Part shown: piece by piece, positions 3,640 through 30,173 of the stretch
Numbering within the stretch: position 1 is the stretch's first letter
Layout of the letters: the number at the start of each line of letters is the position of its first letter
Origin: Paracoccaceae bacterium
GTDB taxonomy: Bacteria; Pseudomonadota; Alphaproteobacteria; Rhodobacterales; Rhodobacteraceae
DNA: 52,513 nucleotides
Assembly (NCBI GenBank): GCA_024226455.1
Contig: JAAELR010000169.1
Coordinates: 1-52,513, forward strand
Direction: 5' to 3'
Made by a program: the position numbers and the translations under genes
Notes under the pieces: model-generated
What the model was told of the DNA's origin: nothing
Database searches by the model: none
What the model saw: only the letters and a program-made list of their open reading frames with translations

Positions 3640-3641
3640 GG

Positions 3642-3829: not shown

Positions 3830-3903
3830 TCAAAATCCGGCGCAATTGCATCGCAAGCTGAATGGCCGGGCCCCCGTGGGTCGGCGGGCATCGCGCCCGT
3901 TGC

Positions 3904-3921
3904 GACCCCGTGCCCGGGGTC
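3904..3921 (-). terminator. Weak hairpin downstream of the DsbA-like gene
   Basis: GACCCC/GGGGTC six-base stem with a six-base loop, about 33 bases past the stop codon of the minus-strand gene at 3954. There is no T-tract, so it is at best a weak terminator or mRNA 3' end structure. Confidence 0.25.
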
Positions 3922-3953
3922 GGCAATCTGTTCGGCGGGGCGCTGGGTTGCGG

Positions 3954-4703: not shown

Positions 4704-4737
4704 AATCCGTTCTTCCCTGTTCGCGGCCTGGGCCGTC

Positions 4738-6078: not shown

Positions 6079-6133
6079 TGACTGACCGCCTCTTGAAGTG
6101 CCGTTCACCAGACCAGAGCATAGGAGTGAGCCG

Positions 6134-7273: not shown

Positions 7274-7453
7274 TCAAAATGTGCGCTACCGCGCGCTCTT
7301 GGTTCAGCAGGTTGCCAGGCGACGTGTCTTTCCGGCGTGGGGCCCGGTGAAAGCGGGCAGGGGTCCGGTTCACCATGGCGAAGCTTTTGGGGGATTCCCG
7401 GGGGCGGGATTGGGCGGTATAGTGAGATTGTGAGACAAGAGAAAAGGGGCACG

Positions 7454-8665: not shown

Positions 8666-8672
8666 GCAACAG

Positions 8673-8713
8673 TGTCCCCATGGGGACATACGACTAATGT
8701 TTTGACAACATTA
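8673..8713. terminator. Two adjacent inverted repeats between convergent genes
   Basis: TGTCCCCATGGGGACA at 8673-8688 is a perfect 16-bp palindrome. TAATGTT-TTGAC-AACATTA at 8695-8713 is a 7-bp stem with a 5-base loop. They sit in the gap between the amidase gene and the convergent methyltransferase gene, where a bidirectional terminator would be expected. The second has A/T-rich flanks, but neither has a long T-tract; the first could equally be a protein-binding site. Confidence 0.35.
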
Positions 8714-8771
8714 TAGATAGCGCTAACAGCCTGGCGACGGAATCGCCCAAGGTCCGGAAGATCAGGGCAGA

Positions 8772-9380
8772 TCAGGACGGGCGTGCCGATTGACGGGCCA
8801 GCCAGATGGTATGGCGACAGCAATCGGGGTCTTCGACCACGAAATCGATCAGCCTGAACCCGGCGGCGCCAAGCAATGCGCGGTAGTCGGCGGGATCGAG
8901 GCTGGCGTGATAGACCTTTTCGCCCTCGACCTCGCCAATGGGTTCGCCCGCGGCGGGGCCGGCGGTGAACATCAGCGCCGCACCGGGGGCGGCATGGGCG
9001 GCGAAGACCGCGAACATGGCGTGCTGGTCGGCGGGACTGAGATGGAAAAAACTGTTCCAGGCGAGGATCGCGTCGAACTGCCGGCCCAGGTCGAGCCCGC
9101 GCATATCGGCATGCACCGCCTCGGCGTGCGGGATGTTCTGGCGAAAAAGCGCCAGCATGGCGGCGGCGCCGTCGACCCCGGTGACCCGCGCGCGCCGGTC
9201 CACCAGATAGCGGGCGATCGGGTTGCCGGTGCCGCAACCCAGATCCAGCACCCGGCGCGGCGGCGGCGTGTGGTGCAGCATCCGGTCGAGCCATTTGCGC
9301 TCGAACAGGGTCTTGTCGCGGCGGCGGGCGAAACCTTCGGCGACGCGTTCGTAGGTGGGCAGGATGTTTTCGGGGGTCAT
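8772..9380 (-). CDS. Class I SAM-dependent methyltransferase
   Basis: 202 residues with a Rossmann-like methyltransferase core: motif I VLDLGCGTGNPIARYL (about residues 44-59), an acidic residue after the second strand (VTGVDGAAAMLALF), motif II HADMRGL and motif III-like FDAILAWNSFFHLSPADQ. The length is that of small-molecule methyltransferases of the Methyltransf_25/UbiE-like group. The substrate cannot be read from the sequence. It is divergent from the penicillin-binding protein gene with 150 bases between the starts and convergent with the amidase gene. Confidence 0.82.
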   Translation of the reverse strand: MTPENILPTYERVAEGFARRRDKTLFERKWLDRMLHHTPPPRRVLDLGCGTGNPIARYLVDRRARVTGVDGAAAMLALFRQNIPHAEAVHADMRGLDLGRQFDAILAWNSFFHLSPADQHAMFAVFAAHAAPGAALMFTAGPAAGEPIGEVEGEKVYHASLDPADYRALLGAAGFRLIDFVVEDPDCCRHTIWLARQSARPS

Positions 9381-16662: not shown

Positions 16663-17319
16663 ATGAAAATCAACTGGTGCGGTCATTCGGCGTTCCTGGT
16701 TGCCTCTGAAAACGGTCTGGTCCGGCTGCTTTTCGACCCCTATATACCCGGCTCCTGGAACGGGGCGCTGAAATACGCCCCCATACGCGAGACCTGTGAC
16801 GCTGTCTTTGTGTCTCACAAGCACGATGGCCATTTTGGCTTTAACACCATCAACGGCAACCGGGCGCTGATCCGCGGGCATGGCAAGTTCTGGGTTCAGA
16901 ACGTGCATGTCAACGGAGTGCAAACCTGGCATGATGACTGCAAGGGCCAGGAGCGCGGCGACAACACCGCCTTTGCTTTCAGGCTGGATGGCATCAATAT
17001 CGCGCATATGGGCGATATCGGGCACAAGCTGGACGACCGGCAACTGGAAGAACTGGGTGATGTGGACGTGTTGATGATTCCCTGCGGCGGCCATTCTACC
17101 GTGGACGCCGAGGGCGCCTTTGGTATTGTGCAGCAGTTGCAGCCGGGTATCGTGCTGCCCATGCACTACAAGACCGACAAGCTTGATGCCGTTTTGGAGG
17201 AGGTGGATGCTTTCGCCAGGCTTTTTTCGAAGGTGGAGAGGGTTGACGGCTCATTGGAGCTTGCCGCCGAAACCTTGCCTGAAGACACCACCCTGATGAT
17301 CATGACCCCAAAATACTGA
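16663..17319 (+). CDS. MBL-fold (metallo-beta-lactamase superfamily) hydrolase, UlaG/YtkL-like
   Basis: 218 residues, soluble, no signal peptide. The ATG at 16663 starts the usual first strand (MKINWCGHSAFLV); upstream in-frame sequence does not fit the fold. Metal-site motifs are H52-K-H54-D-G-H57 (VFVSHKHDGHFGF), an Asp in AHMGDIGH, PCGGHSTVDA and the late His in LPMHYKTDKLD. The order fits UlaG-type Zn hydrolases of the MBL superfamily. The usual Asp of HxHxDH is displaced by one position and replaced by Gly, so metal use or activity may differ. It is the first gene of the run leading into the molybdoenzyme genes, but 330 bases separate it from the catalytic subunit. Substrate unknown. Confidence 0.8.
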   Translation: MKINWCGHSAFLVASENGLVRLLFDPYIPGSWNGALKYAPIRETCDAVFVSHKHDGHFGFNTINGNRALIRGHGKFWVQNVHVNGVQTWHDDCKGQERGDNTAFAFRLDGINIAHMGDIGHKLDDRQLEELGDVDVLMIPCGGHSTVDAEGAFGIVQQLQPGIVLPMHYKTDKLDAVLEEVDAFARLFSKVERVDGSLELAAETLPEDTTLMIMTPKY

Positions 17320-17352
17320 CGGATGACCATGCTGACTTTTTCCAGGGAAAAC

Positions 17353-17571
17353 ATGAACGAAGAGGTCGAAATGATCCGCCGCCTGCAACAAGAGGCGCGT
17401 GGCATTCCGGATGCGCAATGGGCGAGTTGGGTCAACAGGAACCGCGACAGTATCCGTTTGTCGGGAAATGACGGCTATGTGCCGGATCGCGATGAGTGGA
17501 TGAAAAGATGCGAGAGTTTTCTGGTGTGTATGGGAAACCCGCCAATGATGGCGGCGGAGAAAAGGACTTGA
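17353..17571 (+). CDS. Small soluble protein of unknown function
   Basis: 72 residues if translated from the ATG at 17353, which follows CCAGGGAAAAC; an in-frame ATG at 17323 has no ribosome site but cannot be excluded. The sequence is hydrophilic with Trp residues (DAQWASWVNRNRDSIRLSG, RDEWMKRCESFLVCM) and two Cys near the C-terminus. I recognise no family. It lies 33 bases after the MBL-fold gene and 76 before the molybdoenzyme gene, so it is probably transcribed with them. Confidence 0.55.
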   Translation: MNEEVEMIRRLQQEARGIPDAQWASWVNRNRDSIRLSGNDGYVPDRDEWMKRCESFLVCMGNPPMMAAEKRT

Positions 17572-17647
17572 GGCGGCAAACTGACGCTATCAATGTACAC
17601 AAACACCGGATAGACATATTCCAAGATACGAATACAGGAGAGCAAAG

Positions 17648-20185
17648 ATGTCGCTGAAACCCCTAGACGAGTCGACGCGCGACTACGATCAGGTGATTGC
17701 CACAAACTGCAACAATCAGTGTGAATCGTCTTGCGGCATGCTGGTCTATGTCAAGGACGGGCGGGTTGTCGATATCATGGGCGACACCCGCAACCCCAAC
17801 GCCTATGGGGCGCTGTGCTGCAAGGGCTCCGGGTCATACCAACACATCTATAATCCCCTGCGCGTCAAGTACCCGATGATCCGCAAGACCCTGGATGACG
17901 ATTTTCAGCGGGTCTCGTGGGACGATGCGCTCGATTTCACCGCCGAGCGCCTGCTGAAGGTGCGTCAGAAATACGGCCCCGAAGCGCTGATGATCCACCG
18001 CACCGGTCGGTCGGACTATAACTGGAAGATGGGCGCCAAGCGGTTCTCCAAGCTGTGGGGCACGCCCAACATCGTGGGCCAGGGTCCGATCTGCTGTGAA
18101 AGCCCGGGCATTGCCGGCAACTACACTTTCGGCGCCAAAGAGCTGTTCCGCCTGACCAATCCGACCATGGACTGGGTCAATTCCAAGTGCATTCTGGTGG
18201 CAGGGTCCAACATGGCCGCCTCCGAGGTCACCACCGCCAACTGGCTGCTGAATGCCAAGGAAAACGGCGCCACCATCATCGTCATCGATCCGCGCTTCAA
18301 CGCCACCATGGCCAAGGCCGACATCGCGATGCGGCTGCGCCCCAACACCGACGCGGCCCTGGCACTGGCCATGATCAACGTGATCCTCAAGGAAAATCTG
18401 CAAGACGACGCGTTCATCAAGGAAAACGTGGCGGGCCTTGCCGAGTGGATGCCCATCATCGAGGACATGCCGCCAGAGCGCGCCGAGCGTATCACCTGGG
18501 TTCCCAAGGATACCATCATCGAGGCCGCGCGTGCCTTTGGCATGGCCAAGCCCGCCTCGATGACCGGCTGCCTGGGGACCGCCCAGACCTACAATTCCAA
18601 CAACATCAACCGCACCTATCAACTGCTGGCTGCGATCACCGGCAACGTCGGCATCGAGGGCGGCGGCGTCAACTGGCTGCATAACTGCCGGCCGCCCGAT
18701 AATCCCGGTCACGACCTTGCCGGCTATGCGCGCGGCGATCTGGACGCTCAGATAGATGCTGCAGCCGCCGGCTACGGTGTTGAAGGAGAGGCGCTTGACC
18801 TGCCCAACCGTGGTGGCCCGCGTCCGCCGATCACCGACAAGCTGGTGCCGTGGCTGGATATCTCGGCCGCCGCCTTCCCCAACGCCATCCTGACCCAGAA
18901 GCCGTACCCGATCCGCGCGGTCTGGTGGAACGGCAACATGCTGGCGCAGATGCCCAATACCAACAAGTATTCGGCAGCGATGAAGGCCAATGTGGACATT
19001 GCGATCCACATGTCCTGGCACCCGAACTTTACCTATCACCACGCCCATGTGGCATTTCCGATCACCTCATGGGTCGAGCGTGAGGGCCAGGTACACCACG
19101 GCAACAACCGCCTGAACCAGTGGTACAACAAGGCCATCGACGAGAACTGGGAGTGCCGCAACGATATCGACGTGGTCTGCGGCATTGCCGACCGGGTCGG
19201 CTTGGGCGACTATTTCCCGTTCCGCGACAGCCGCAACCGCGCCGATCTGCCGGCCTGGGTGACCTTCTTCAACAAGCAAGAACCCCTGACCGCCGGCATC
19301 GTCAAGGAAACCATGGATCCCGAAACAACGCCTCCGGGCGGGGTGATGTGGCCTGCGATGACGGAAAAAGAGGCGATGACCTTCGAAACGCCCGAGGCCA
19401 GGATCCGCGGCAAGTGGATCATGTACAAGAAAGGTGAAAACTATCCCGGTTCCGACAAGCGGTTCCCGACCGAGAGCGGCAAGATCGAGTGCGCTTCACG
19501 CCCGCTGGACGTGCTGGGCTGGGACAGCCTGCCGCAACACCGCGAAGGGGCACATACCGCCGTTTCCGCGCCAGAAGAGTTCAAGGACTATCCGCTGGTG
19601 CTGTGTACCGGACGTCTGGTCTCATCGTTTCACGAAATGGGTCACTGGTGGCCGTGGACCGATGAGCTTGAGCCGGAGAAGTTTGCCCAGATCCACCCGG
19701 GGCTGGCGAGTGCCTTGGGTATCCGGGACGGCGACGTGGTTGTGCTGGAATCCAAGCGCGCAGAGATCGAAAGCTTCGCCTGGGTCACCGAAGAGACTGA
19801 CCCGCGCGAGATCTGGGTGCCGGCCTCGACGGATGAGTATCAGCCGTTCGTGCCGGGTGTCACCAACCGCAATGTCAGCTATCTGATCGACGATATCGTC
19901 AAGGATCCGGTCTATAACCAGCCGGAATTCAAGGCACAGCTGATCAACATCCGCAAGAAGGGCGATGACCGCGACAAGGCGATCACGCTGACCCACTCTA
20001 TCGTTGACCCGATGTCCGACTATCCGGTCAAGGATTATGAATTCGGTCAGTATCAGGATGGCGTTGCCCAGGGCGGTGCGCCGACCTGGGACAAGCAAAG
20101 CGGCACCGTTCAATATGAGGGCCAGTCTTATGAGACAGGCAATCTGATCGAAAAAGTGTTGGCTAAGCGCCTCGCGGCTGAATAG
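17648..20185 (+). CDS. Cytoplasmic bis-MGD molybdenum/tungsten oxidoreductase, catalytic subunit (DMSO reductase superfamily)
   Basis: 845 residues; ATG follows CAGGAGAGCAAAG. An N-terminal [4Fe-4S] site C21-x3-C25-x3-C29...C57/C58-KG is followed by the Molybdopterin domain (from about residue 65) and the C-terminal Molydop_binding domain (about 650-790; LVLCTGRLVSSFHEMGHWW, THPG-like IHPGLASALGIRDGDVVVL). C149-C150-E151-S-P-G-I-A-G aligns with the V-U/C-H-G-P-S-V-A-G loop of formate dehydrogenases, so Cys150 is the likely metal ligand, and the catalytic His of formate dehydrogenases is replaced by Glu151. There is no twin-arginine signal, so the enzyme should stay in the cytoplasm. Downstream genes encode a ferredoxin subunit and maturation factors. 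Substrate cannot be assigned; it is not a clear match to nitrate, DMSO, arsenate or formate enzymes. Confidence 0.9.
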   Translation: MSLKPLDESTRDYDQVIATNCNNQCESSCGMLVYVKDGRVVDIMGDTRNPNAYGALCCKGSGSYQHIYNPLRVKYPMIRKTLDDDFQRVSWDDALDFTAERLLKVRQKYGPEALMIHRTGRSDYNWKMGAKRFSKLWGTPNIVGQGPICCESPGIAGNYTFGAKELFRLTNPTMDWVNSKCILVAGSNMAASEVTTANWLLNAKENGATIIVIDPRFNATMAKADIAMRLRPNTDAALALAMINVILKENLQDDAFIKENVAGLAEWMPIIEDMPPERAERITWVPKDTIIEAARAFGMAKPASMTGCLGTAQTYNSNNINRTYQLLAAITGNVGIEGGGVNWLHNCRPPDNPGHDLAGYARGDLDAQIDAAAAGYGVEGEALDLPNRGGPRPPITDKLVPWLDISAAAFPNAILTQKPYPIRAVWWNGNMLAQMPNTNKYSAAMKANVDIAIHMSWHPNFTYHHAHVAFPITSWVEREGQVHHGNNRLNQWYNKAIDENWECRNDIDVVCGIADRVGLGDYFPFRDSRNRADLPAWVTFFNKQEPLTAGIVKETMDPETTPPGGVMWPAMTEKEAMTFETPEARIRGKWIMYKKGENYPGSDKRFPTESGKIECASRPLDVLGWDSLPQHREGAHTAVSAPEEFKDYPLVLCTGRLVSSFHEMGHWWPWTDELEPEKFAQIHPGLASALGIRDGDVVVLESKRAEIESFAWVTEETDPREIWVPASTDEYQPFVPGVTNRNVSYLIDDIVKDPVYNQPEFKAQLINIRKKGDDRDKAITLTHSIVDPMSDYPVKDYEFGQYQDGVAQGGAPTWDKQSGTVQYEGQSYETGNLIEKVLAKRLAAE

Positions 20186-20198
20186 GAGGTCTGGTTTC

Positions 20199-20846
20199 AT
20201 GACAGAGCAATCCAAGGACTTCATGACCGAAACCATCGGGCACAAGAACGAGTACAGCAAGGTTGCCGGGCACGACGCGGCCAGGACCCTGCCGGGTCCG
20301 GGTCCGAACCCCAGCGCGCACTACACGCTGTTTCATGACGCGGACCGGTGCATCGGCTGCTACTCGTGCGAAGTGCACTGCAAACTGGAAAACGAGGTCC
20401 CCGTGGGGCCTCGTCTGATGCGGATCGTGCAAATTGGGCCCAAGGTCAGCGCCGGCAAGCTGAAAACGGCCTATGTGGCGATGTCGTGTTTTCATTGTCA
20501 GGATCCGGGCTGTGTCGCGGTATGTCCCACCGGGGCGATGCACCAGCGCGCCGATGGTCTGGTCGACGTCAATCAGGACATCTGCATCGGCTGCAAGGCC
20601 TGCATTGGCGGCTGCCCGTTCGGCGCGCCGCAATACAATCCGCAGTCCAAGACCGTGATCAAGTGTTCCTATTGCGTGCATCGCGTGGATCGCGGCCTGT
20701 GGCCGGCCTGCGCTACCAAGTGCACCACGCATTGCCTGTACTTCGGCAATATCAACGAGATCTCCACGATCATTCGAGAGCGCTATTCCAGGCAGCGCAA
20801 CGCTGGTATCGCGCATTTGCCAACCGGCACCGAAGTAACTCGCTAG
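20199..20846 (+). CDS. Ferredoxin-type electron-transfer subunit with four [4Fe-4S] sites
   Basis: 215 residues. AGGAGG stands 9 bases before the ATG, and the gene starts 13 bases after the catalytic subunit. Four cluster-binding sets are visible: C51-x2-C54-x2-C57-x3-C61, C97-x2-C100-x4-C105-x3-C109, C129-x2-C132-x2-C135-x3-C139, and C156-x2-C159-x11-C171-x3-C175. This is the DmsB/PhsB/NrfC layout of the small subunit in bis-MGD enzymes. It has no signal peptide, matching its cytoplasmic partner. No membrane-anchor subunit is encoded in the cluster, so electrons probably go to or come from a soluble partner, possibly the FAD protein encoded at 23404. Confidence 0.92.
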   Translation: MTEQSKDFMTETIGHKNEYSKVAGHDAARTLPGPGPNPSAHYTLFHDADRCIGCYSCEVHCKLENEVPVGPRLMRIVQIGPKVSAGKLKTAYVAMSCFHCQDPGCVAVCPTGAMHQRADGLVDVNQDICIGCKACIGGCPFGAPQYNPQSKTVIKCSYCVHRVDRGLWPACATKCTTHCLYFGNINEISTIIRERYSRQRNAGIAHLPTGTEVTR

Positions 20847-20856
20847 GGGGGTGAAC

Positions 20857-21198
20857 ATGACCAACAAAGCAAATGTCTACTACGACGAGAGCAAGACCTC
20901 GACCGAGCGGGTCGCGGCGCATGGCGATCAGTACATTCCCGATCCGCAAAAGCTGCTCGACGCGGGCTATGCTGGAACCATCTGGGGAACGCCGATCCGG
21001 GTGGATTTTCAGAATGGCGATTTCGAGAAGGCCGACAAGGCCGTCGCGGCGTCCGGCAGCAAGATAATCTACAAGGCGGTTGCCTCGGTAGAGCCATACC
21101 ACGCCACGATCTGGGTCACCGAAGAGGATGGCGAAAAGGCGATCAAGGCCGTCACCGACGCCGGTGTCACGGTGCATGAAGTCAAGGCCTTCTACTAG
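20857..21198 (+). CDS. Small protein of unknown function, possible third subunit of the molybdoenzyme
   Basis: 113 residues. The ATG at 20857 follows TAGGGGGG, a strong site; a GTG six bases earlier overlaps that site. The protein is soluble, without Cys, with an alternating strand/helix pattern in its second half (KIIYKAVASVEPYHATIWVT, EEDGEKAIKAVTDAGVTVHE) that suggests a small ferredoxin-like or ACT-like alpha/beta fold. I do not recognise the family. It starts 10 bases after the ferredoxin gene and comes before the chaperone genes, the position of a structural subunit. Confidence 0.75.
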   Translation: MTNKANVYYDESKTSTERVAAHGDQYIPDPQKLLDAGYAGTIWGTPIRVDFQNGDFEKADKAVAASGSKIIYKAVASVEPYHATIWVTEEDGEKAIKAVTDAGVTVHEVKAFY

Positions 21199-21253
21199 GT
21201 CCGGCGCCTTCTGTCTTTGGTTTTCGGGCTCCAGAGACCCGGCAAGCAAACCC

Positions 21254-21283
21254 ATGTCCGGGATCGGCAACGACCCCGGACAT
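21254..21283 (+). promoter_or_regulatory. Intra-operon hairpin between structural and maturation genes
   Basis: ATGTCCGGG (21254-21262) pairs perfectly with CCCGGACAT (21275-21283) across a 12-base loop, with no T-tract after it. It lies in the 168-base gap between the third small gene and the chaperone gene. Such a structure can mark an RNA processing or stability boundary, giving more of the structural subunits than of the chaperones. Confidence 0.45.
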
Positions 21284-21366
21284 CATGAAGACCAGATCAG
21301 AATGAACCGGCCTCTTGCTTTGCTCTGCGGCAAAAAAGCCGGGTTGTTACATGCTTGGGAAACCCC

Positions 21367-22398
21367 ATGAAAGAAAACGATCTCAGCCAGACGCTCAACG
21401 ATTTGTTGGACGAGTTCGATCGCCTCGACGCAGAGAGCACCCGCGTCAGCGACCGGGTCGGCGACCGCGAAACCCCCGGCGGCAAGAACCGCAAGGAACT
21501 GCGCGAGCAAACCGAGATCGACCTGCTGTATTCCGACCCGCAGGTGATCGACTTTTGGAAAAGCGAGGGGCAGCGTTACAGCTATCTCTACTGGGTTCGA
21601 GCGATGGTCCACCGCAATGTAGAGCCGGCCCGGATCGCCCCATGCCAGCCGCCCTCCACCGATGACCAGACCCTTGTCGACCAGCAAAGGCAAAACGTCT
21701 ATTCGTTGCTGGCCGAGTTGCTGGAGAACCCCACCCGGGATCTGGCCGAGCGCCTGAGCAGCGGCGCGCTGCTGGAGAGCCTGGCCGCCGTGCCGCTGGC
21801 GCTTGGCGGGCATGGTTCCGTTGCTCAGGGAACGGCCGACCTGGCCGCGCTGAAAGGGCAGGACGTCGAGGAACTGCTCAACGAGATCCGCATGGAATAC
21901 GCGCGGATCATCTATGACAGCTTCTTTCCCTACGTCTCGCCATACGAATCCATCTATCTTGGCGACCGGCAGGTGCAGGGCGATCGCACCGGCCAGGTCT
22001 ACAGCGCCTACAACGCCGCCGGTCTGAAGGCATCGGGCGAGTTTGCCGACCATATCATGCACGAATGCGCCTTCGTTGCAGAGCTGCTGGGCCGCAAGCT
22101 GTGTGCCGACGAGGCCCAAGACACGCAAGCGGCAGATCAGGCCATGGGCCACCATGACCGCTTTCTGGCCGATCACCTGCTGCCCTGGGCAACCCGGTTC
22201 GGTCATGACTTTGCCAAAGTGGCCGCGATGCGCGAAGAAAACAGCCGCGAACGGCCCGCACAAAGCTACGTCACCGGCATAGGCAAACTGGTGGTGGGCT
22301 TTTTCACGCTGGAAGCCAACCGGTTCCACGCAAGACAGCCCCTCGCCGAGCGGTTCGTTCTGTTCGAGAGCGAAGGCCCAGAGGATACCGCCAGCTGA
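21367..22398 (+). CDS. TorD/NarJ-family molybdoenzyme chaperone with an N-terminal extension
   Basis: 343 residues from ATG 21367; the usual TorD/DmsD/NarJ length is 180-230. The last ~230 residues carry the family pattern: QNVYSLLAELLENPTRDL, EYARIIYDSFFPYVSPYESIYLG, QVYSAYNAAGLKASGEFADH and the helix IMHECAFVAELLGRKL. The first ~110 residues are hydrophilic and acidic, of unknown role. Such chaperones hold the apo-catalytic subunit until bis-MGD is inserted; since the enzyme has no Tat signal the role here should be cofactor insertion, not export proofreading. The stop codon overlaps the start of the next gene by one base (TGATG), so translation is coupled to the parvulin. Confidence 0.85.
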   Translation: MKENDLSQTLNDLLDEFDRLDAESTRVSDRVGDRETPGGKNRKELREQTEIDLLYSDPQVIDFWKSEGQRYSYLYWVRAMVHRNVEPARIAPCQPPSTDDQTLVDQQRQNVYSLLAELLENPTRDLAERLSSGALLESLAAVPLALGGHGSVAQGTADLAALKGQDVEELLNEIRMEYARIIYDSFFPYVSPYESIYLGDRQVQGDRTGQVYSAYNAAGLKASGEFADHIMHECAFVAELLGRKLCADEAQDTQAADQAMGHHDRFLADHLLPWATRFGHDFAKVAAMREENSRERPAQSYVTGIGKLVVGFFTLEANRFHARQPLAERFVLFESEGPEDTAS

Positions 22399-23327
22399 TG
22401 AGCAGCAAGGTCGACAACCAGCCTTTGGCAACGGTCAATGGCCACATCATCTATGCCGGGTCTCTGTCGCGTGAGATAGAGCAGCTGGCGGCCACGGTCC
22501 ACGGGGTCAGCTTTGAAAACCTGGTGCCAAGCCAGCGCGCCGAGTTGAAGAAGAACGCCATCACCAAGCTGGTTCGCGAAGAGCTGGTGCTGGAGAGCAA
22601 ACTGGCGGTTTCGGTGCAGCCGACCGAAGATGAACTGAAAGCAGGCATCGACGAGGCCCAGTTGGGGATACTGGTTCAGGGCGGCGACGACATCGTGGAC
22701 GATGAGGGGTTTCAGAAGCGGCTGGGCGAGAGCGTCCGCCGGGAACTGATCATTCATCACGTGATCGGGTTGTTTCTGGCCGAGGCAGAGGTCAGCGACG
22801 ACGACGTGGCGCGCTTCTATCAGGCCCAGAACCAGGCTCCGGGGCTAAGCCGTTTTGTGCGCGATGGCCGCCTGGATCTTGCAGAGATCTTTCTGGAAGC
22901 CGAAAAGACGCTTTGCCCCGCGGGTCGGTCGGCTTTGATCCTTGCCTTGCGTTCGTTCAAGGAGCGTATCGAGGATGGGGAAACATTTGCCGATCTGGCG
23001 CGAAAGCACTCGGAACGCGCCGGGACCCGGGAAAGTGGCGGTCGTATCGGCTGGGTCCGCCGTGGCGAGATAAACGATGCGGCCTTCGATGCCGCTTGCG
23101 CCCCCGACGAAAACAGCCTGACCGACGTGGTGCCAACCCCGAGCGGTTACCTGCTGATGCAGGTCATCGACAAGGATTTGTCGGTGCTGCCGCTGGACGA
23201 GGTACGCGACGAGATCCGCCGGGAATTGCGTGACGCCCAGGCCAGGGCCGCCTTCAGGGAGTGGGTTTCGCAGTTGATGGCAAAGGCCGATATCCGGGTC
23301 GGCGGCGACCCCAGCACATGGAAATGA
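22398..23327 (+). CDS. Parvulin-type peptidyl-prolyl isomerase (NifM/NxrX-like), cytoplasmic
   Basis: 309 residues, no signal peptide. An N-terminal helical SurA/NifM-like domain (ATVNGHIIYAGSLSREIEQL) is followed by a PpiC domain at about residues 155-260 (RLDLAEIFLEAEK, GETFADLARKHSERAGTRES, GGRIGWVRRGEINDAAFDAA, PSGYLLMQVID) and a C-terminal helix. Periplasmic SurA/PpiC proteins carry signal peptides; this one does not, as with NifM and the NxrX protein encoded between nitrite oxidoreductase genes. Here it most likely helps fold or mature the molybdoenzyme in the cytoplasm (inference from position). Translationally coupled to the TorD-like gene. Confidence 0.85.
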   Translation: MSSKVDNQPLATVNGHIIYAGSLSREIEQLAATVHGVSFENLVPSQRAELKKNAITKLVREELVLESKLAVSVQPTEDELKAGIDEAQLGILVQGGDDIVDDEGFQKRLGESVRRELIIHHVIGLFLAEAEVSDDDVARFYQAQNQAPGLSRFVRDGRLDLAEIFLEAEKTLCPAGRSALILALRSFKERIEDGETFADLARKHSERAGTRESGGRIGWVRRGEINDAAFDAACAPDENSLTDVVPTPSGYLLMQVIDKDLSVLPLDEVRDEIRRELRDAQARAAFREWVSQLMAKADIRVGGDPSTWK

Positions 23328-23403
23328 TGAAACGGGTCAGCAACATGCCCAGGGTTCAAGGCCTTGGCGGCAAGGGTTTTCCCGGCGAAAAGGAGCAAAC
23401 AGC

Positions 23404-24924
23404 ATGACTGGCAGAATGGTCATCATCGGCAACGGTCCCGCGACTGCGGAGGCTATAGAAGCCATCCGCAAGTTCAGTCCCGACGCAAGTATCACCGTCC
23501 TCAACAAGGAACCCTGGCCCGCGTATTCGCCCTGTCCGCTGGCGCTATACGGATGGAACGAGGCGCCGGACTATGCGCAGGCGCGCGGCGAATGGGGCGA
23601 AAAGCACCCCGACGAACGCATCCCGCAGATGCTCGGCATTCCCCGCGAGGGTCTCTACTGGAAAGGCGGCATGGAGTTCTACCAGCGCCATAACGTGGAT
23701 CTGCGGCTTTCGATGCCCGCCAGGTCGATTGACACCGAACGCAAGGTTGTGGTGGCTGAGAACGGCGAAGAGTTCGAATGGGACAAGCTGTTGATCGCCG
23801 CCGGTGCCACAACCTTCTGGGTGCCTATCCCCGGTCTGGCAGAGGCCAGAGACAAGGGCCTGGCGCATGCCTTCAAGACCATCGAGGACGCCGACAGCGT
23901 GGTCGACCATCTGCGCGACCCGGACCGTGCATCGGCCAGAGCCTTGGTCATGGGGTCCGGCCCGATCGGCATCGAGGCCTCGGAAACCCTGCGCGGCTGG
24001 GGCGTGGACGTGACCATGGTTGAACTGGTCGATACCGTTTTGCCGGTAATGACCGACGCCGACAGTTCCGATATCCTGAAAAAACACATGGAAGATCACG
24101 GGCGCATGCGGGTGATCACCTCTCAAGGCGCCAAAGAGGTGGTATTCAACGACGACGGGTCGCTGACGGGCGTCGAGGTTGGCGATCTGGGCCTGATCGA
24201 ATGCGACCTGATCATCAACTCGGCCGGCCAGCGCCCCAATACCTGGCTTTGTGACGGCACGGATATCGAGGTGGCCGAACGGGGCGGGATCCTGGTGGAC
24301 CAGTACATGCGCACATCGAACCCGGACGTGTTTTCGGCAGGCGATGTGGCGCAGTTCTTTGATGTGGTGGGGGTTCAGCGAATGATCCCGCTTTGGCCCA
24401 ACGCCGTGGTCGGGGGGCGCATAGCCGGGTTCAACATGGTCGGAAAGCCGGTGTTCAACAAGGGCGGCATCGACGCCAACGCGGTCAACGTCTTCGAACT
24501 GCCCATCGCGGCGGGCGGGTCGCCCAAGGCAGAGCATGACGAGACCCTGATCGGCCGGAACGCCGACACCTGGGTCAAGATGTACCTAAAGGACAATATC
24601 GTGGTCGGCTTCACCGCGATTGGCACGGTGCGCGAGCAAGAACTGAACCTTGACGCCTACAACCTGCCCGCGGAACAGATGGAAGAGATCCGCAGCGCCT
24701 TTGCCCGCAGTCAGAACCGCGAAGGCGCCGGTCTGGAAGGCAACGGGATATTCTACACGCTGCTGAGGCGCAAACAGGTGCTTTGCGATGAAATGAAAGA
24801 GCTGATCCGGCAGGGAGATTTCCGCACCGGAAGCTTCCGGGCCTTGTTTGCCATTGACCGGCACGATTTTGTCCGCCTGCCCGACCGGGTCGGCGTGCGC
24901 GGCCAGGAGATCTGTCCGCGATGA
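23404..24924 (+). CDS. FAD/NAD(P)-dependent oxidoreductase (CoA-disulfide reductase/NADH oxidase fold)
   Basis: 506 residues; ATG after AAAAGGAGC. FAD site at the N-terminus (VIIGNGPATAEAI), NAD(P) site ALVMGSGPIGIEASETL near residue 180 and the second FAD motif NPDVFSAGDVAQFF near 305. Cys44 (WPAYSPCPLALYG) is where CoA-disulfide reductases and NADH peroxidases keep their redox Cys. The C-terminal ~120 residues match no standard dimerisation pattern that I can see. It is a good candidate for the soluble NAD(P)H partner that exchanges electrons with the ferredoxin subunit. Its stop overlaps the start of the Mrp-like gene by four bases (ATGA), so both are co-translated. Confidence 0.88.
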   Translation: MTGRMVIIGNGPATAEAIEAIRKFSPDASITVLNKEPWPAYSPCPLALYGWNEAPDYAQARGEWGEKHPDERIPQMLGIPREGLYWKGGMEFYQRHNVDLRLSMPARSIDTERKVVVAENGEEFEWDKLLIAAGATTFWVPIPGLAEARDKGLAHAFKTIEDADSVVDHLRDPDRASARALVMGSGPIGIEASETLRGWGVDVTMVELVDTVLPVMTDADSSDILKKHMEDHGRMRVITSQGAKEVVFNDDGSLTGVEVGDLGLIECDLIINSAGQRPNTWLCDGTDIEVAERGGILVDQYMRTSNPDVFSAGDVAQFFDVVGVQRMIPLWPNAVVGGRIAGFNMVGKPVFNKGGIDANAVNVFELPIAAGGSPKAEHDETLIGRNADTWVKMYLKDNIVVGFTAIGTVREQELNLDAYNLPAEQMEEIRSAFARSQNREGAGLEGNGIFYTLLRRKQVLCDEMKELIRQGDFRTGSFRALFAIDRHDFVRLPDRVGVRGQEICPR

Positions 24925-25850
24925 CCGATACACCACCCATCCTGACCAGTATTCAGCAGGCACCCGTTGCCGAGCAGCCCTGCGAGCGTCTGAACGGGTG
25001 CGATATCTGCCCGGAATATCACGGCTGTATGCTCAAACGCCGCGAAACCCATGAAAGCTGGCTGGTTGATGAGAAGCTCAAGAAGATCAAATACCGGCTG
25101 ATCGTCGCCTCGGGCAAGGGCGGGGTGGGTAAATCCACGCTGACCGCCGGTATCGCGGTGGCGCTGGCCAGGGCCGGCTTGCGGGTGGCCCTGATAGACG
25201 CTGATATTCATGGCCCCAACATCCCCCAGATGCTGGTGGCCGAAGACAGCGACGCGGCCCGGCATCAAAAGGGCCTGCAACTGGATGAGATCGGTATCGT
25301 TCCGGTGGTGCCGATGCCCCAAGAGGCGCCCGGCCTTGGCATGATATCGATGGATTATTTCATCGAAAGCTCCGATGACGCCGTGATGTGGAAGGGGCCG
25401 CTGAAAAAGGACCTGATCCGCCAGCTGGTCGCGGCAGTAAACTGGGGAGAGCGGGACGTCTTGTTGTTCGATCTGCCGCCCGGAACCGGGGATGAGCCGA
25501 TGATGGTCACCGAGATCGTCGACCGCATCGATGGTGTCGTCGTGGTCTCTACCCCGCAGCGCGTTGCCCTGCTGGACGCACGCAAATCGATCTCGATGGC
25601 AAATCACCTGAACGTTCCGGTTCTGGGCATGGTCGAGAACATGACCGACGAGGATCTGTTCGGCGCCAATCAGGTGAGCAAATCCGCGGAAGAGCTGAAT
25701 GTGCCCTACCTGGGCAGCATTCCGCTGGACCGCAGGATCATAAAACTGGCCGACGAAGGCCGGTCCATCATTGTCGAGCACCCCGAAAGCGAGGCTGCAA
25801 AAGCGATAACGGCATTGACCGATCGGATCATCAGTGATCTGGAGAAATAG
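24921..25850 (+). CDS. Mrp/NBP35/ApbC-like P-loop ATPase with unusual N-terminal Cys cluster
   Basis: 309 residues. Deviant Walker A G65-K-G-G-V-G-K-S-T73 (IVASGKGGVGKSTLTAG), DADIHGPNIPQML, LFDLPPGTGDEPMM and VSTPQRVALLDARKS are diagnostic of Mrp/ApbC Fe-S carrier or MinD-type ATPases. The family's C-terminal CPxC motif, which binds the bridging cluster, is absent: the ENMTDEDLFGAN segment has none. Instead Cys21-x5-Cys27-x2-Cys30-x5-Cys36 stands at the N-terminus (CERLNGCDICPEYHGCM), similar in position to eukaryotic NBP35. It probably delivers Fe-S clusters to the oxidoreductase subunits. Confidence 0.87.
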   Translation: MTDTPPILTSIQQAPVAEQPCERLNGCDICPEYHGCMLKRRETHESWLVDEKLKKIKYRLIVASGKGGVGKSTLTAGIAVALARAGLRVALIDADIHGPNIPQMLVAEDSDAARHQKGLQLDEIGIVPVVPMPQEAPGLGMISMDYFIESSDDAVMWKGPLKKDLIRQLVAAVNWGERDVLLFDLPPGTGDEPMMVTEIVDRIDGVVVVSTPQRVALLDARKSISMANHLNVPVLGMVENMTDEDLFGANQVSKSAEELNVPYLGSIPLDRRIIKLADEGRSIIVEHPESEAAKAITALTDRIISDLEK

Positions 25851-25892
25851 GCCATCGCCCCGGGGGCGATAGGAACCAGGGGAGATCCCGGC

Positions 25893-27068
25893 GTGAACGG
25901 ATTGGCGGCCCATCGGTTTGACCGCAATGAACTTGCCGGTTCGCTAAGCGACCTTGGCACCCTGCTGCCGCTGACCATCGCGCTGGTTCTGGTCAATTCC
26001 GTGCCCCTTGCCACAACCTTGCTGGTGGTCGGCGGGCTCTATGTTTTCGGTGGTCTCTACTATCACCTGCCAATTCCGGTGCAGCCGCTAAAGGTGGTTT
26101 CGGCGGTGGCGATAGCCTCTCAGTTGCCGGTAGAAACCATCGCCGCCTCTGGCCTGATCCTTGGGGTGATCCTGCTGATCCTTGCCGCTACCGGCGCCAT
26201 CGACCTTGTTGCCCGGGCTTTCACCCGCCCCATCGTGCGTGGTATCCAGCTTGGGCTGGGCATGATCCTGATGATCAAGGGGGTGGAGTTCGTAATGGCG
26301 CCCGAGTTGACCCTGAACGGTCCCGCCGCGGCGCCCTGGCTGAACCCGGTTGTCGGTATCATCGGGGCGGTGATCGTGTTGCTTTTTGTCGAGAACAAGC
26401 GATTTCCGGCGGCGCTGCTTTTGCTCGGCTTTGGTGTCCTGGTCGGTTTGACGCTGGGTGAACGCCCCGAGATGCAGCCGCAAAACTCTGGCCTGGTGCT
26501 GATCCTGCCGGATTTCAGCCATTTCTGGGCTGCGTTTTTCCTATTGGTCCTGCCGCAGTTTCCGCTGACCATCGGCAACGCCATCATCTCTACCCGCGAT
26601 GTGGCGATCACCAAATACGGCGAGGCCAAAAGCGCCCGCGTGACCTTGCGGGCTTTGCTGACGTCCATGGGCATCACCGGGCTGATATCGGGAACCATCG
26701 GTGCCATGCCGGTATGCCACGGCGCCGGAGGTCTGGCCGCGGCCTACCGTTTCGGGGCGCGCACCGGCGGATCGAACCTGATCATAGGCGTCATCGCCAT
26801 CGTTCTGGCGCTGTTGTTCACCGATCAGGCCCTGATGGTGCTAACCTTGATACCCCAAAGCATTCTTGGCGTGCTGTTGTTCTTTGCCGGGCTGGAACTG
26901 GCGCGGATGATCGCGGATACGGGCGGCAAATGGGACCTGATGACAGCACTGGCAATCGCCGGCGTTTCGGTTGCGACCAGCAACATGGGCATTGGCGTTC
27001 TGGTCGGCTTCGCCATGCAGGGGGTCATCATGGCGACGCAAGGCCGGTCGGCAAACGATACCGAATAG
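25893..27068 (+). CDS. MOT1-type molybdate (or sulfate/tungstate) transporter
   Basis: 391 residues with a GTG start after CAGGGGAG. About ten hydrophobic helices fill the protein. Signature stretches are the N-terminal GSLSDLGTLLPLTIAL, PIPVQPLKVVSAVAIA, LPQFPLTIGNAIISTRD and MPVCHGAGGLAAAYRFGART, which fit the MFS_MOT1/SulP-related molybdate transporters of plants and bacteria. It should sit in the inner membrane and bring in the oxyanion needed for the cofactor. Placed between the Mrp-like gene and moeA, it makes the cluster independent of the housekeeping ModABC system. Specificity for molybdate over tungstate cannot be read from the sequence. Confidence 0.87.
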   Translation: MNGLAAHRFDRNELAGSLSDLGTLLPLTIALVLVNSVPLATTLLVVGGLYVFGGLYYHLPIPVQPLKVVSAVAIASQLPVETIAASGLILGVILLILAATGAIDLVARAFTRPIVRGIQLGLGMILMIKGVEFVMAPELTLNGPAAAPWLNPVVGIIGAVIVLLFVENKRFPAALLLLGFGVLVGLTLGERPEMQPQNSGLVLILPDFSHFWAAFFLLVLPQFPLTIGNAIISTRDVAITKYGEAKSARVTLRALLTSMGITGLISGTIGAMPVCHGAGGLAAAYRFGARTGGSNLIIGVIAIVLALLFTDQALMVLTLIPQSILGVLLFFAGLELARMIADTGGKWDLMTALAIAGVSVATSNMGIGVLVGFAMQGVIMATQGRSANDTE

Positions 27069-27172
27069 CCATGAGGACACTCCGGCGCCGCAGCCTATTG
27101 CTGAGCAGCAATTTGGTTTCTAACACTTCCCCCAGCAATCGCACCGCAAGAACCGGAACACAGGAGCCACCA

Positions 27173-28384
27173 ATGAACTTGATGCCTTTCGCGCTAGCCC
27201 GCGAGCGTACACTGGCGCGAGTCAGCCCATTGGCCGAGACAGAGACGATCCCGGTGGCCTCGGCTCTGGGTAGGGTGCTGGCCGAACCGGTTGTCGCGCC
27301 TTTTAACGTACCCAATCACGACAACACGTCGATGGATGGCTATGCCGTCCGGTTCGATGATCTGGCGTCGGGCCGTGATAGCACGCTGACGGTGGTCGCC
27401 GACCTGCCGGCGGGCGACCAGCTGACGCAGACCATCGGCGCGGGCGAAGCCGTGCGCATCATGACCGGGGCACCTATCCCCGACGGCTGCGATTGCATCG
27501 TCATTCAAGAGGTGGTGCAGCGCGACGGCGACCAATTGACCGTGCCGCAGGGCCAGACGCGGGCGCAGAATATCCGCCGGGCCGGGCAGGACATATCCGC
27601 CGGCCGCGAGGTGTTTGCCCAAGGCCGCCTGTTGTCGCCACCGGATATCGGAATGCTGACCTCGCTGGGGCTGGCCGAGATCAGCGTCCATCGCCGCCTG
27701 AAAGTCGCCGTGCTGTCGACCGGCAACGAAGTGATCGCCCCGGGCACCCCGCTGGAGCCGGGTCAGGTATACGATTCCAACCGATCCTCGATGAAAGCCG
27801 CCTTGCAGGCGCTGGGTGTCGATATCCTCGATCTGGGCATAATCCGCGACGATAAAAAGGCCATTGCGGCAGCTTTGCGCAAGGGTGCGGCAGAGGCGGA
27901 CGTTGTGCTTACCTCGGGTGGTGTGTCGGTGGGCGACTATGATCTGGTTACCGACGTGATCCGCGAACTGGGCAGCATCGATTTCTGGAAGGTGCGGATG
28001 AAGCCGGGCAAGCCCCAGGCCCATGGCCGCATCGGAGACGCTATCTTCTTTGGTCTGCCCGGTAACCCGGTTTCGGTATTGGCGACGTTCCTGTTGCTGG
28101 TGCGCCCGGCGCTGCTGGTCATGATGGGATGCAAGCCCGAACCGATGAAGCAACTGGTTGTGCCGTTCGGGGGCGATCCGATCAAGAAGACCGGCGACAG
28201 GATGGAATTCGCCCGGGGCGTTCTGCACCATGAGGGTGCCGAAAGCTGGGTCGGCAGCACCGGTTCCCAGAACTCGGGCATCCTGAGCAGCATGTCCAGG
28301 GCGAATGTCTTCATCGTCTTGCCCGACGAGCCGGTCGAGGTGCACAAAGGCGATTTGGTCACCATCGTTCCGATCGAATACTGA
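27173..28384 (+). CDS. moeA: Molybdopterin molybdenumtransferase MoeA
   Basis: 403 residues. The ATG at 27173 follows CAGGAGCCACCA; upstream in-frame sequence overlaps the transporter gene and does not fit. All MoeA landmarks are present: NHDNTSMDGYAVRFDD, IMTGAPIPDGCDCIV, VLSTGNEV with YDSNRSSM, TSGGVSVGDYD, MKPGKP and GLPGNPVSVLATFL, ending in the small C-terminal beta domain. It inserts molybdate into adenylylated molybdopterin. Most genomes have a housekeeping copy by the moaBC or moeB genes; a dedicated copy in an enzyme cluster suggests a specific cofactor need, possibly tungsten, which is inference. Confidence 0.95.
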   Translation: MNLMPFALARERTLARVSPLAETETIPVASALGRVLAEPVVAPFNVPNHDNTSMDGYAVRFDDLASGRDSTLTVVADLPAGDQLTQTIGAGEAVRIMTGAPIPDGCDCIVIQEVVQRDGDQLTVPQGQTRAQNIRRAGQDISAGREVFAQGRLLSPPDIGMLTSLGLAEISVHRRLKVAVLSTGNEVIAPGTPLEPGQVYDSNRSSMKAALQALGVDILDLGIIRDDKKAIAAALRKGAAEADVVLTSGGVSVGDYDLVTDVIRELGSIDFWKVRMKPGKPQAHGRIGDAIFFGLPGNPVSVLATFLLLVRPALLVMMGCKPEPMKQLVVPFGGDPIKKTGDRMEFARGVLHHEGAESWVGSTGSQNSGILSSMSRANVFIVLPDEPVEVHKGDLVTIVPIEY

Positions 28385-28418
28385 TCTGGTATCAGGGTGC
28401 ATTTGGGATCACGTAGTC

Positions 28419-30173
28419 ATGCCTGATTTTCGCTGGGATGAACGAAACCCCTATCCGACGGCCAATACCCTGTTCGATCTGGCCCGGTTCCCGGGTGGCT
28501 TGCTGGTGGCAGTGGCACAGGCCGGGACCATCCTGCAAAGCCACGACGCCGGGGATAGCTGGTCGCGCACCTGGCTGAACACCCAGCATGAATTGCGCGC
28601 CCTGCATGTGTTCGAAGACGGTCGGGGGCTGATCGGCGGGGCCAGCGGGCTGTTATTCAGAACCTCGGACGGGGGCCATGAGTGGCAGCGCCAGCCTTTG
28701 GACACGCCCGAGACGATCCACCGGTTTCATTTCCTGAATGACCGCGACGGTTGGGCTGTGGGGTCTTTCGGCCTGTGCCTGAAGACCTCTGACGGGGGCC
28801 ATTCCTGGGGCCCCTCCGGCCTGGAAACCAGCGCCTGGATCAGGGACATCGCCGACCTTGGGGACGGCAACATCATTGCCGTGGGCGACGCGGGCCAGCG
28901 CTGGGAGAGCCACAATCACGGGGCGGACTGGACCCTGCACCATATGGGTACGCCGCTGTCGCTCAACCGGATTGTCTGGCGTGGGGATACCGGATGGATC
29001 CTGGCCGAGCGGGGCCAGTTCTTCGCGCTCTCAACCTCTGACGGGCAATGGCGCGGGGTTAAGCTGCCCACGGGCCGCAACCTCACAGACCTTCATTGGG
29101 AGACCGGCCTGACGGGATATCTCTGCGGCAGTGGCGGAACCCTGCTGAGAACTGCTGATGGCGGCCAAAGCTGGTCGCCGGAAGCCTTGCCGTCCAGTGT
29201 CAACCTGAACCGTCTGGCCGCTGCGGCGGGGGGTATCTGGCTGGTCGGAGAGATGGGCACCTTGATGAAACGGGATGACGCAGCCGGTGAATGGGGCCTT
29301 CTTTCCTCTGGCCGGCTCAACCAGTTGTGGAGCGTCGCGCAGGTCGCAATGGGACGTTTCATCGTGGTTGGCGAAGACGGTCTGGTGATGCGTTCCGAAA
29401 ATGACGGCAAGACCTGGGCCATGTCGCCCACACCGTGCCCTGGCAAGCTCTATGATGTGGCCATCTGCACCGACCGGCAAGGTGCACCGACGGTCTGGGC
29501 CGTGGGGGCGCAGGGCGCGCTGATGTGTTCCAAAGACAAGGGCGAAACCTGGTCCGCCCATGCTCTGCCAAAGCCCGTCACGCTGTATAGCGTTGCCTTT
29601 GGCGATGCCCTGAACGGCTGGGCCGCGGGCGAGGGCGGTGTGTTGGTGGCGACCAGGGACGGTGGCAATAGCTGGCAAATGATCGACCTGGCAGTCCCCT
29701 CGGCCCTGCACAGCGTGTTTTTCCTGGACCCCGATCATGGCTGGGCCGCTGGCGAGGATGGTTTGATCCTGCTGACCTCGGACGGAGGCGAGACCTGGCA
29801 GCAAAGCTCGTCGGGTACTCAAAAAAGCCTGCATTGCATACATTTTCGCGATGCCTGCGATGGCTGGGCGGTGGGCGCCCAGGGGGCGTTGCTGCGATCA
29901 ACGGACGGCGGCAAAAGCTGGCAACAACACCCCATCGCCCTGAAGGCCGATCTTAATCGGCTGCGCTGGTCGCCGGGCGGCTTTGGCTGGATCGTAGGCG
30001 AGGATGCGAACCTGCTGGTCAGTTCTGACCAGGGCCGGAACTGGAGGCGATTTCCCAAGGCCTCCCAGGCTGCGCTAAAGGATGTCTTGCCGCTTTCCGC
30101 TGGTCCCGGGACAGGCAACGAGGGTCTGCTGTTGGTCGGTGCAAATGGTCTGATCATGGAGTTGCGCTGGTGA
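28419..30173 (+). CDS. Ycf48-like beta-propeller protein, last gene of the molybdoenzyme cluster
   Basis: 584 residues, no signal peptide or membrane helix. Thirteen to fourteen BNR-like motifs of the form G-x-L-x-x-S/T-x-D-G-G-x-x-W run through the chain (GLLFRTSDGGHEW, GTLLRTADGGQSW, GVLVATRDGGNSW, GLILLTSDGGETW, GALLRSTDGGKSW), each after a GWAVG-like strand. This is the pattern of Ycf48/HCF136, a photosystem II assembly factor, but about twice as many repeats as Ycf48. A double propeller is likely. There is no photosystem here; position 34 bases after moeA points to a scaffold or assembly role for the metal enzyme (inference). The ATG at 28419 is the first good start; its ribosome site is weak. 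Confidence 0.85.
   Translation: MPDFRWDERNPYPTANTLFDLARFPGGLLVAVAQAGTILQSHDAGDSWSRTWLNTQHELRALHVFEDGRGLIGGASGLLFRTSDGGHEWQRQPLDTPETIHRFHFLNDRDGWAVGSFGLCLKTSDGGHSWGPSGLETSAWIRDIADLGDGNIIAVGDAGQRWESHNHGADWTLHHMGTPLSLNRIVWRGDTGWILAERGQFFALSTSDGQWRGVKLPTGRNLTDLHWETGLTGYLCGSGGTLLRTADGGQSWSPEALPSSVNLNRLAAAAGGIWLVGEMGTLMKRDDAAGEWGLLSSGRLNQLWSVAQVAMGRFIVVGEDGLVMRSENDGKTWAMSPTPCPGKLYDVAICTDRQGAPTVWAVGAQGALMCSKDKGETWSAHALPKPVTLYSVAFGDALNGWAAGEGGVLVATRDGGNSWQMIDLAVPSALHSVFFLDPDHGWAAGEDGLILLTSDGGETWQQSSSGTQKSLHCIHFRDACDGWAVGAQGALLRSTDGGKSWQQHPIALKADLNRLRWSPGGFGWIVGEDANLLVSSDQGRNWRRFPKASQAALKDVLPLSAGPGTGNEGLLLVGANGLIMELRW

Follow-up and report, generated by a model that had tools for sequence, protein, structure and literature searches.

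Which molecule is the substrate of a soluble molybdenum or tungsten enzyme whose genes lie together with those of its redox partners and cofactor supply? The question is raised by a 52,513-nucleotide stretch of a Paracoccaceae bacterium (contig JAAELR010000169.1 of assembly GCA_024226455.1; hereafter the window), part of a 4.36-Mb assembly with a completeness of 98%, in which 12 plus-strand genes occupy positions 16663-30173. Among them, cat (17648..20185, plus strand) encodes an 845-amino-acid (aa) catalytic subunit of the bis-molybdopterin guanine dinucleotide (bis-MGD) type. A sequence-only reading of the window had named ten of these genes, running in one direction, and had left the substrate open; all ten were present on the plus strand, together with genes for a metallo-beta-lactamase (MBL)-fold hydrolase and an 82-aa protein. 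The cat family is indeed unnamed, but the genes around cat and the gene content of the genomes that carry it indicate the sulfite step of Dsr metabolism in the cytosol and therefore narrow the substrate. The link of the family to Dsr sulfur metabolism is strong, and we consider it an even call that the cluster encodes an NAD-linked sulfite dehydrogenase of the cytosol, which belongs to an undescribed MopB family and replaces SoeABC.

A separate clade in the MopB superfamily

Three domains, Molybdop_Fe4S4 (PF04879), Molybdopterin (PF00384), and Molydop_binding (PF01568), scored above cut-off in cat and place it in the MopB (DMSO reductase) superfamily. It reached no cut-off among the 25 NCBIfam families listed, the best scores being those for the formate dehydrogenase (FDH) alpha subunit (Fdh-alpha, TIGR01591; 301 vs 666 bits), NasC (226 vs 1100), and PhsA (206 vs 694). 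The best PDB match was FdhF of the hydrogen-dependent CO2 reductase (HDCR), and phmmer gave 169 bits against acetylene hydratase (2e7z), lower than for FDH chains. In a tree of 32 rows, which held several long branches, one SoeA, and no acetylene hydratase, the 15 cat rows formed one clade (support 100/100) separate from the FDH, Nap/Nas, Aio, Nar, Dms/BisC, and PhsA/SoeA/PadB-like rows. The closest row was an uncharacterised plasmid MopB protein (97/97), and the lone SoeA row, on a long branch, grouped with PhsA and a PadB-like row (98/97). Judged by sequence, cat is a new MopB family outside the sampled characterised families, which bears out the sequence-only reading, to which no described pathway with this gene set was known. 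Wells et al. 2023 (PMC10100899) report unnamed Cys-type lineages in a basal position relative to the MopB enzymes of the sulfur, Asp, and Ser groups, which is about where cat falls; these are not necessarily the same sequences as cat, and the accessible text states no function or neighbourhood for them. The open literature, with subscription journals mostly outside the search, yielded nothing in its accessible parts that we recognised as the cat family or as a soluble sulfite dehydrogenase linked to NAD, and the phrase "cytoplasmic sulfite dehydrogenase" does occur there. The molybdoenzymes in the accessible text of PMC8528874 are others, and the dedicated tungsten maturation route in that of PMC13197769 serves another enzyme.

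The active site was compared across 32 aligned rows. The motif GQGPxCxESPG was present in 31 of them, the remaining row, L035, being broken at this point and reading RAPLCCESPG. C149 was invariant (32/32), and position 150 was Thr in L010, L011, L014, and L022. The ligand column fell on C149 with L-INS-i and on C150 with HMMER; we favour C149 over C150 as the probable metal ligand, and Thr150 as a metal-ligand switch was set aside in view of the invariant C149 and its L-INS-i alignment with the ligand. The active site of FDH has a His directly after Cys/Sec and an Arg. This His was absent from all rows, whichever ligand register was used, and the Arg was retained in L037 as well as in bacterial and Altiarchaeales rows; the remaining 12 archaeal rows carry Ala or Lys. 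Membership of cat in the formate dehydrogenase, PhsA, or Soe families was rejected on cut-offs, active-site residues, or tree. The AlphaFold model of cat was poor (pLDDT 64.5) and was not used.

A genome-contig scan recovered 31 relatives of cat in 30 genomes. Two come from the Rhodobacteraceae metagenome-assembled genomes (MAGs) L007 (96% identity) and L008 (94%). Identities of 56-70% were found in Nitrospirota, Thermoleophilia/Gaiellales, Chloroflexota/Anaerolineales, one further bacterium, and an Altiarchaeales single-cell assembly, and identities of 44-49% in 13 Hydrothermarchaeota-type loci (labelled Hydrothermarchaeota, Pyrohabitans, Euryarchaeota, or archaeon). No cat was found in 389 other sampled genomes of the order of the window genome, and none of 1327 matching plasmid records reached 60% identity. 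The single-cell archaeal assembly WOR_SM1_SCG carries two cat genes (L021 and L022), of which L021 clusters with Chloroflexota copies in the tree and may reflect contamination or transfer.

Dsr and Apr genes in the company of cat, and the contrast with Soe

Genome content was searched in 31 genomes, namely the source genome and the 30 genomes of the related loci, most of which are MAGs. DsrA was above cut-off in 18 of these, the source genome included, and two more scored 347 and 328 bits; among other sampled genomes of the order, 8 of 291 had DsrA above cut-off. The dsr row of the source genome comprises A, B, E, F, H, C, K, and O above cut-offs, DsrM (163 vs 300 bits) and DsrP (66 vs 350 bits) below them, and two genes named by position, L, for which there is no model, and J, which gave no match. 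Its dsrEFH and L genes mark the operon as predicted oxidative type.

The association was also visible in Nitrospirota, where 9 of 395 sampled genomes carried cat. With the DsrL of the source genome as query, 24 of the same 395 genomes passed E 1e-60, and the eight with the top scores (256-364 bits) all carry cat; the one remaining cat genome scored 204 bits, and the best genome lacking cat scored 244. Two Nitrospirota MAGs with DsrL and without dsrD, of the families f_RBG-16-64-22 and f_9FT-COMBO-42-15, appear in the accessible text of PMC10591310, and these family names match L011 and L017. An actinobacterial MAG from a deep aquifer, described there as having three sets of dsrAB, is possibly our Gaiellales genome SURF_19 (G613, L034), in which three dsrA were above cut-off. 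The part of PMC10203281 available gives dsrL in 7/367 Nitrospirota genomes, four of them in the RBG-16-64-22 clade.

Physical linkage was found in two phyla. A Chloroflexota locus (L018) carries the row dsrABCMK-MOT1-cat, with dsrB (383 bits, cut-off 341.5), dsrC (113, 53.5), and dsrK (545, 400) above and dsrA (345, 393) and a DsrM-like gene (205, 300) below their cut-offs. In Nitrospirota RBG_16_64_22 (L147/L011), sat (399, 323), aprB (214, 136), and aprA (952, 642) are followed by three opposite-strand Hdr/Qmo-type genes, none at cut-off, and then by cat. A one-strand row in L148/L013 consists of aprA (893 bits, above cut-off), qmoA- and qmoB-like genes, qmoC (453, 300), and cat. Hdr/Qmo-type genes also lie near cat in L010 and L014, with aprA and sat on the contig of L010 and not on that of L014. 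Overall, qmo-type genes adjoin cat in four Nitrospirota, three of which have aprA on the same contig. The AprAB-Qmo-Sat system resembles the proposed role of cat in acting on cytosolic sulfite at the same pathway step. It is a flavoenzyme route via adenylyl sulfate, with ATP, and its proteins are unrelated to cat.

SoeABC, which passes electrons to quinone, is the usual sulfite dehydrogenase, and genes of its type occur in dsr-positive Rhodobacterales. All eight dsrA-positive Rhodobacterales lacking cat had a DmsC match (E 2.7e-8 or better) adjoined by a SoeB-like ferredoxin gene, and the end of a SoeA-type gene was present in seven; in G289 (L110), a hydrolase gene stood where it was expected. 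A single SoeA (941 aa) was read over its full length, and SoeC in L109 and L112 was called from the DmsC match alone, these loci being GC-rich with wrong-strand frames among the open reading frames picked. AprA was not found at E 1e-30 in these eight genomes, in a run without a positive (the same model found AprA in other genomes), and was absent from all ten dsrA-positive Rhodobacterales. In the two that carry cat, the source genome and G588, the only DmsC matches (E 1.8e-5 and 6.7e-5) fell in fused FeS-DmsC proteins that are encoded next to a further MopB gene, which makes the Soe/cat contrast 8 to 2. SoeABC and the cat cluster both combine a bis-MGD subunit without export signal with a ferredoxin subunit, and sulfite, the substrate of SoeABC, is the one proposed for cat. 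The two differ in that SoeA lies on the PhsA side of the tree and cat in its own clade, with 26-36% identity across the matched N-terminal stretch, and in that Soe has a DmsC-type anchor, whereas the cat cluster has none (its sole strongly hydrophobic protein being MOT1) and has a FAD/NAD protein instead.

Ten MopB places were found in the source genome: two Fdh-alpha and one each of NarG, NapA, NuoG, and arsenite-oxidase large subunit above cut-off, one cat, and three (C2, C336, and C222) that reach no cut-off. At C222 (L098, C222:1-10000), a MopB gene adjoins a fused FeS-DmsC protein (529 aa) and a ligase-like gene, which we take from its sequence to be PaaK-like, the set presumably being PadBCD-like (phenylacetyl-CoA oxidoreductase). 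C222 was not adopted as the missing Soe because G289 carries a similar fused protein and ligase (L116) alongside its SoeBC-type genes, which is no proof. Two further loci deserve mention. The arsenite-oxidase-type pair in L097 (C340:5000-15000; 416 and 119 bits, above cut-off) lies downstream of two di-heme-type genes (the one scanned is MauG-like), an arrangement known from iodate reductase clusters. L096 (C2:5000-16000) holds a MopB frame of 1000 aa that lacks the Fe-S cysteines normally found at the N-terminus and has a ferredoxin-like partner; it is reminiscent of resorcinol hydroxylase or pyrogallol transhydroxylase.

The gene row and its conserved core

The row opens with the MBL-fold hydrolase (Lactamase_B_3; 16663..17319; PF13483, E 1.2e-45; 80 and 69% identity in L007 and L008) and the 82-aa protein (17323..17571), which has no Pfam or NCBIfam match and is kept in the same two loci. 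After cat come the ferredoxin subunit (20199..20846; Fer4_11, E 3.8e-23), whose 17 Cys suffice for the four clusters assigned to it earlier, a small ACT-like subunit (20851..21198; 115 aa; no Pfam or NCBIfam match at E 0.001), a TorD/NarJ-type chaperone (21355..22398; PF02613, E 4.8e-18), for which a later ATG start is possible, and a parvulin-type prolyl isomerase without a signal segment (22398..23327; Rotamase, E 2.7e-11). The remaining genes encode a PadH-like FAD/NAD(H) oxidoreductase (23404..24924; Pyr_redox_2, E 3.3e-50), an Mrp/ApbC-like Fe-S carrier ATPase (24921..25850; PF10609, E 8.2e-76), a MOT1-type oxyanion permease (25893..27068; PF16983, E 2.3e-49), MoeA for metal insertion into the pterin (27173..28384, with the start placed at 27173; MoeA_N, MoCF_biosynth, and MoeA_C), and a Ycf48-like beta-propeller (28419..30173; PF14870, E 4.3e-54; 75 and 60% identity in L007 and L008). 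Intergenic gaps ranged from -4 to 156 bases; of the several overlapping start and stop codons reported earlier, those at TorD/parvulin and FAD/Mrp were found, and the other nine junctions had none. The full 12-gene order is retained in L007 and L008 at protein identities of 56-96%, and the row is therefore more than chance. Outside the row, GC content falls to 52-55% within positions 1-4000 of the window, where a phage-type integrase lies at 2641-3639 (minus strand), a possible island end.

The topology described by the sequence-only reading held up. No RR pair occurs in the first 40 residues of cat, consistent with the absence of a Tat signal, and no 19-residue segment exceeds the hydropathy limit of 1.6; CxxCH is absent from all 12 proteins, in agreement with the lack of a cytochrome. 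Hydrophobic segments numbered ten in MOT1, one borderline segment each in Mrp and MoeA, and none in the other nine proteins. Only the permease looks like a membrane protein by this measure, and no membrane anchor was found. The best NCBIfam match of the flavoprotein was PadH (NF045765; 182 bits, cut-off 475), and because its second nucleotide motif, GSGPIG...VEL, ends in Glu, a preference for NAD(H) over NADP is suggested. The earlier view of a soluble NAD(P)H-linked enzyme with its own cofactor genes thus fits the NAD-type flavoprotein and the cofactor genes present. Residues 41-110 of the ACT-like protein were modelled at pLDDT 77-96 by blocks as beta-alpha-beta-beta-alpha, compared with beta-alpha-beta-beta-alpha-beta in the ACT fold, following an N-terminal extension of about 40 aa; Foldseek matches were weak (best E about 0.01, none at or below 0.001) and included several ACT proteins, and the C-terminal part is conserved in bacterial loci. 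The parvulin scored 35 bits against NifM (TIGR02933; cut-off 168), and a NifM-like use is proposed.

Gene counts in the 31 related loci (matches at E 1e-5, in flanks of at most 10 kb, several contigs ending early) define a smaller unit. A ferredoxin lay near cat in 29 loci, TorD in 19, the ACT-like protein in 15 (in L037 far from cat), and MoeA in 10; the flavoprotein occurred in seven (L007, L008, L009, L011, L012, L016, and L022), MOT1 in five, among them L018, L020, and L031, and the Mrp-like gene in three (L007, L008, and L031). The shared core is cat with the ferredoxin, TorD, and the ACT-like protein. The parvulin, Ycf48-like, MBL-fold, and 82-aa genes were found in L007 and L008 only, so much of the assembly line envisaged earlier is local to these Rhodobacterales, and the idea that all ten genes form one conserved system was rejected by these counts. 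Two ferredoxin genes are present in the majority of archaeal loci, and in ten of the Hydrothermarchaeota-type loci (L023, L024, L025, L027-L031, L035, and L037) a different small protein of 77-108 aa, with a Cys pair in the members printed, lies between the first and the second ferredoxin and replaces the ACT-like protein. MoeA and a gene that we take from its sequence to be MobA-like lie upstream in eight of the 13 Hydrothermarchaeota-type loci, and L031 has a TauE/SafE-family gene (PF01925) between its second ferredoxin and MOT1. The small protein is followed by a VWA protein (about 750-800 aa) in four Nitrospirota loci, L012 (5227-7638), L016, L017, and L019; relatives of the VWA protein occur in L028 and L029, and a thermosome gene adjoins the L028 copy.

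Proposed sulfite oxidation and its alternatives

Microbial sulfur oxidation closes with the conversion of sulfite to sulfate, and to our knowledge the known routes end at quinone (SoeABC and Apr-Qmo) or cytochrome c. The substrate, direction, NAD link, and metal that we propose for the cat enzyme are inferred. Oxidative DsrAB would make cytoplasmic sulfite, which cat would oxidise to sulfate at a bis-MGD centre containing Mo or W, with C149 as its probable ligand. Electrons would pass from the [4Fe-4S] cluster of cat through the four-cluster ferredoxin and the FAD protein to NAD+. The TorD-like protein, parvulin, Mrp, and MoeA would mature the enzyme, MOT1 may import molybdate or tungstate or move sulfate, and the whole would stand in for membrane-bound SoeABC in the source organism. 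With redox potentials of -516 mV for sulfite/sulfate and -320 mV for NAD, the computed yield of sulfite plus NAD+ is about -38 kJ/mol.

Several observations weigh against this proposal. Only 5 of the 31 loci have dsr, apr, or qmo genes near cat within the retrieved flank, and 11 of the 31 genomes lack DsrA above 300 bits; two of these (G592 and G599) have DsrB-like and DsrL matches on the same contig, and the other nine have weak, fragmentary, or no matches. Of the 20 genomes with DsrA above 300 bits, AprA is above cut-off in five, where cat would therefore be redundant (SoeABC and AprAB coexist elsewhere), reaches 364-504 bits in three, and is absent (nothing above 51 bits) in 12. Three of these 12 have Sat, and the nine without Sat at E 1e-20 are all archaeal, eight with dsrA above cut-off, an absence that is no proof because most genomes are MAGs. 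No flavoprotein match was found in the 13 Hydrothermarchaeota-type loci. A SoeABC-type set and AprA were not found in the source genome, which favours the proposal, but SorAB-type sulfite oxidases lay outside that search, and C222 may yet carry out sulfite chemistry. The Soe/cat contrast itself draws on SoeA/B/C names that are our own reading, NCBIfam having no Soe model; its two cat genomes may be one lineage, and G587 combines cat with a SoeABC-type set in the absence of DsrA. According to the accessible texts, Hydrothermarchaeota Dsr was read as sulfate/sulfite reduction with no thiosulfate reductase found (PMC6775978, whose sat and apr in JdFR-18 agree with our search), its DsrAB falls on the reductive side (PMC10504309), and a reductive pathway was inferred for Chloroflexota (PMC10591310). 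A purely oxidative role therefore does not suit all members; reduction of thiosulfate, or a sulfate/sulfite reaction that runs both ways, would.

The main rival, which we hold to be unlikely, is a cytosolic thiosulfate (or polysulfide) reductase that would split thiosulfate into sulfite and sulfide with electrons from NADH or ferredoxin and feed DsrAB and AprAB. It shares the sulfite node, so the linkage to dsr and apr/qmo fits equally, and it suits the dsrA archaea in which no Sat or Apr was found. PhsA and PsrA are likewise Cys-ligand MopB enzymes acting on sulfur compounds, and the ICTESPG of the four Thr150 rows resembles SLCTAPREV of PsrA. Against this, cat stands outside the PhsA/Soe branch and far below the PhsA cut-off; PhsA and PsrA are exported and membrane-anchored (periplasmic in Table 1 of PMC10100899, as accessible), and cat lacks an early RR pair. 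Such an enzyme would also be unneeded where dsr is oxidative, and it leaves the missing SoeBC-type genes of genomes with cat and dsrA unexplained.

That cat is a formate dehydrogenase or another non-sulfur enzyme, its sulfur link reflecting shared ancestry or lifestyle, seems quite unlikely. Cytoplasmic FDH and HDCR FdhF are, like cat, soluble with ferredoxin partners, and they gave its best family score and PDB match; yet that score is less than half the Fdh-alpha cut-off, which two other proteins of the source genome exceed. Another residue stands in place of the FDH His whichever register is used, 12/13 Hydrothermarchaeota-type rows lack the Arg, the tree separates cat from FDH, and dsr and apr/qmo neighbours recur in two phyla.

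It is very unlikely that cat acts at the Dsr level on some other small sulfur species, for example a sulfonate, the trisulfide of DsrC, or a sulfur intermediate bound to lipoate. In L020 (Anaerolineales, 3149-8783), three GcvH-like genes in a row, LipS1- and LipS2-like genes, two LplA-like genes, and an HdrD-like gene precede MOT1-cat, and dsrC lies nearby in L018. The L020 genes may recall lipoate-dependent sulfur oxidation, but they may also serve glycine cleavage, their LipS1 and LipS2 matches are slightly under cut-offs, and DsrC had no match in the 30 loci other than L018 (lipoate-binding genes were not sought in all loci).

A bidirectional enzyme, acting as ferredoxin-driven sulfate reductase in Sat- and Apr-less archaea and as sulfite dehydrogenase in sulfur oxidisers, is highly improbable, since the genomes are mostly incomplete MAGs, the archaea may be plain sulfite reducers, and we know of no case of direct sulfate reduction without activation, although the nine dsrA archaeal genomes without AprA or Sat and their loci with two ferredoxins and no flavoprotein would agree with it, and the couple, computed at about -390 to -420 mV for 18 mM sulfate and 1-10 uM sulfite at 25 C, would lie within reach of ferredoxin. 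The broadest version, in which the family would interconvert sulfate and sulfite without ATP, yielding NADH from sulfite in sulfur oxidisers and reducing sulfate with ferredoxin in Hydrothermarchaeota-type archaea whose DsrAB holds sulfite micromolar, strikes us as slightly less probable still.

If the enzyme is a cytosolic, NAD-linked sulfite dehydrogenase, it would give sulfur oxidisers reducing power without reverse electron flow and would fill a gap in dsr-positive genomes that lack Soe and Apr, and cat would serve as a marker gene. The distribution of the family also raises a testable question about the sulfite source of dsrAB archaea without Sat and Apr.

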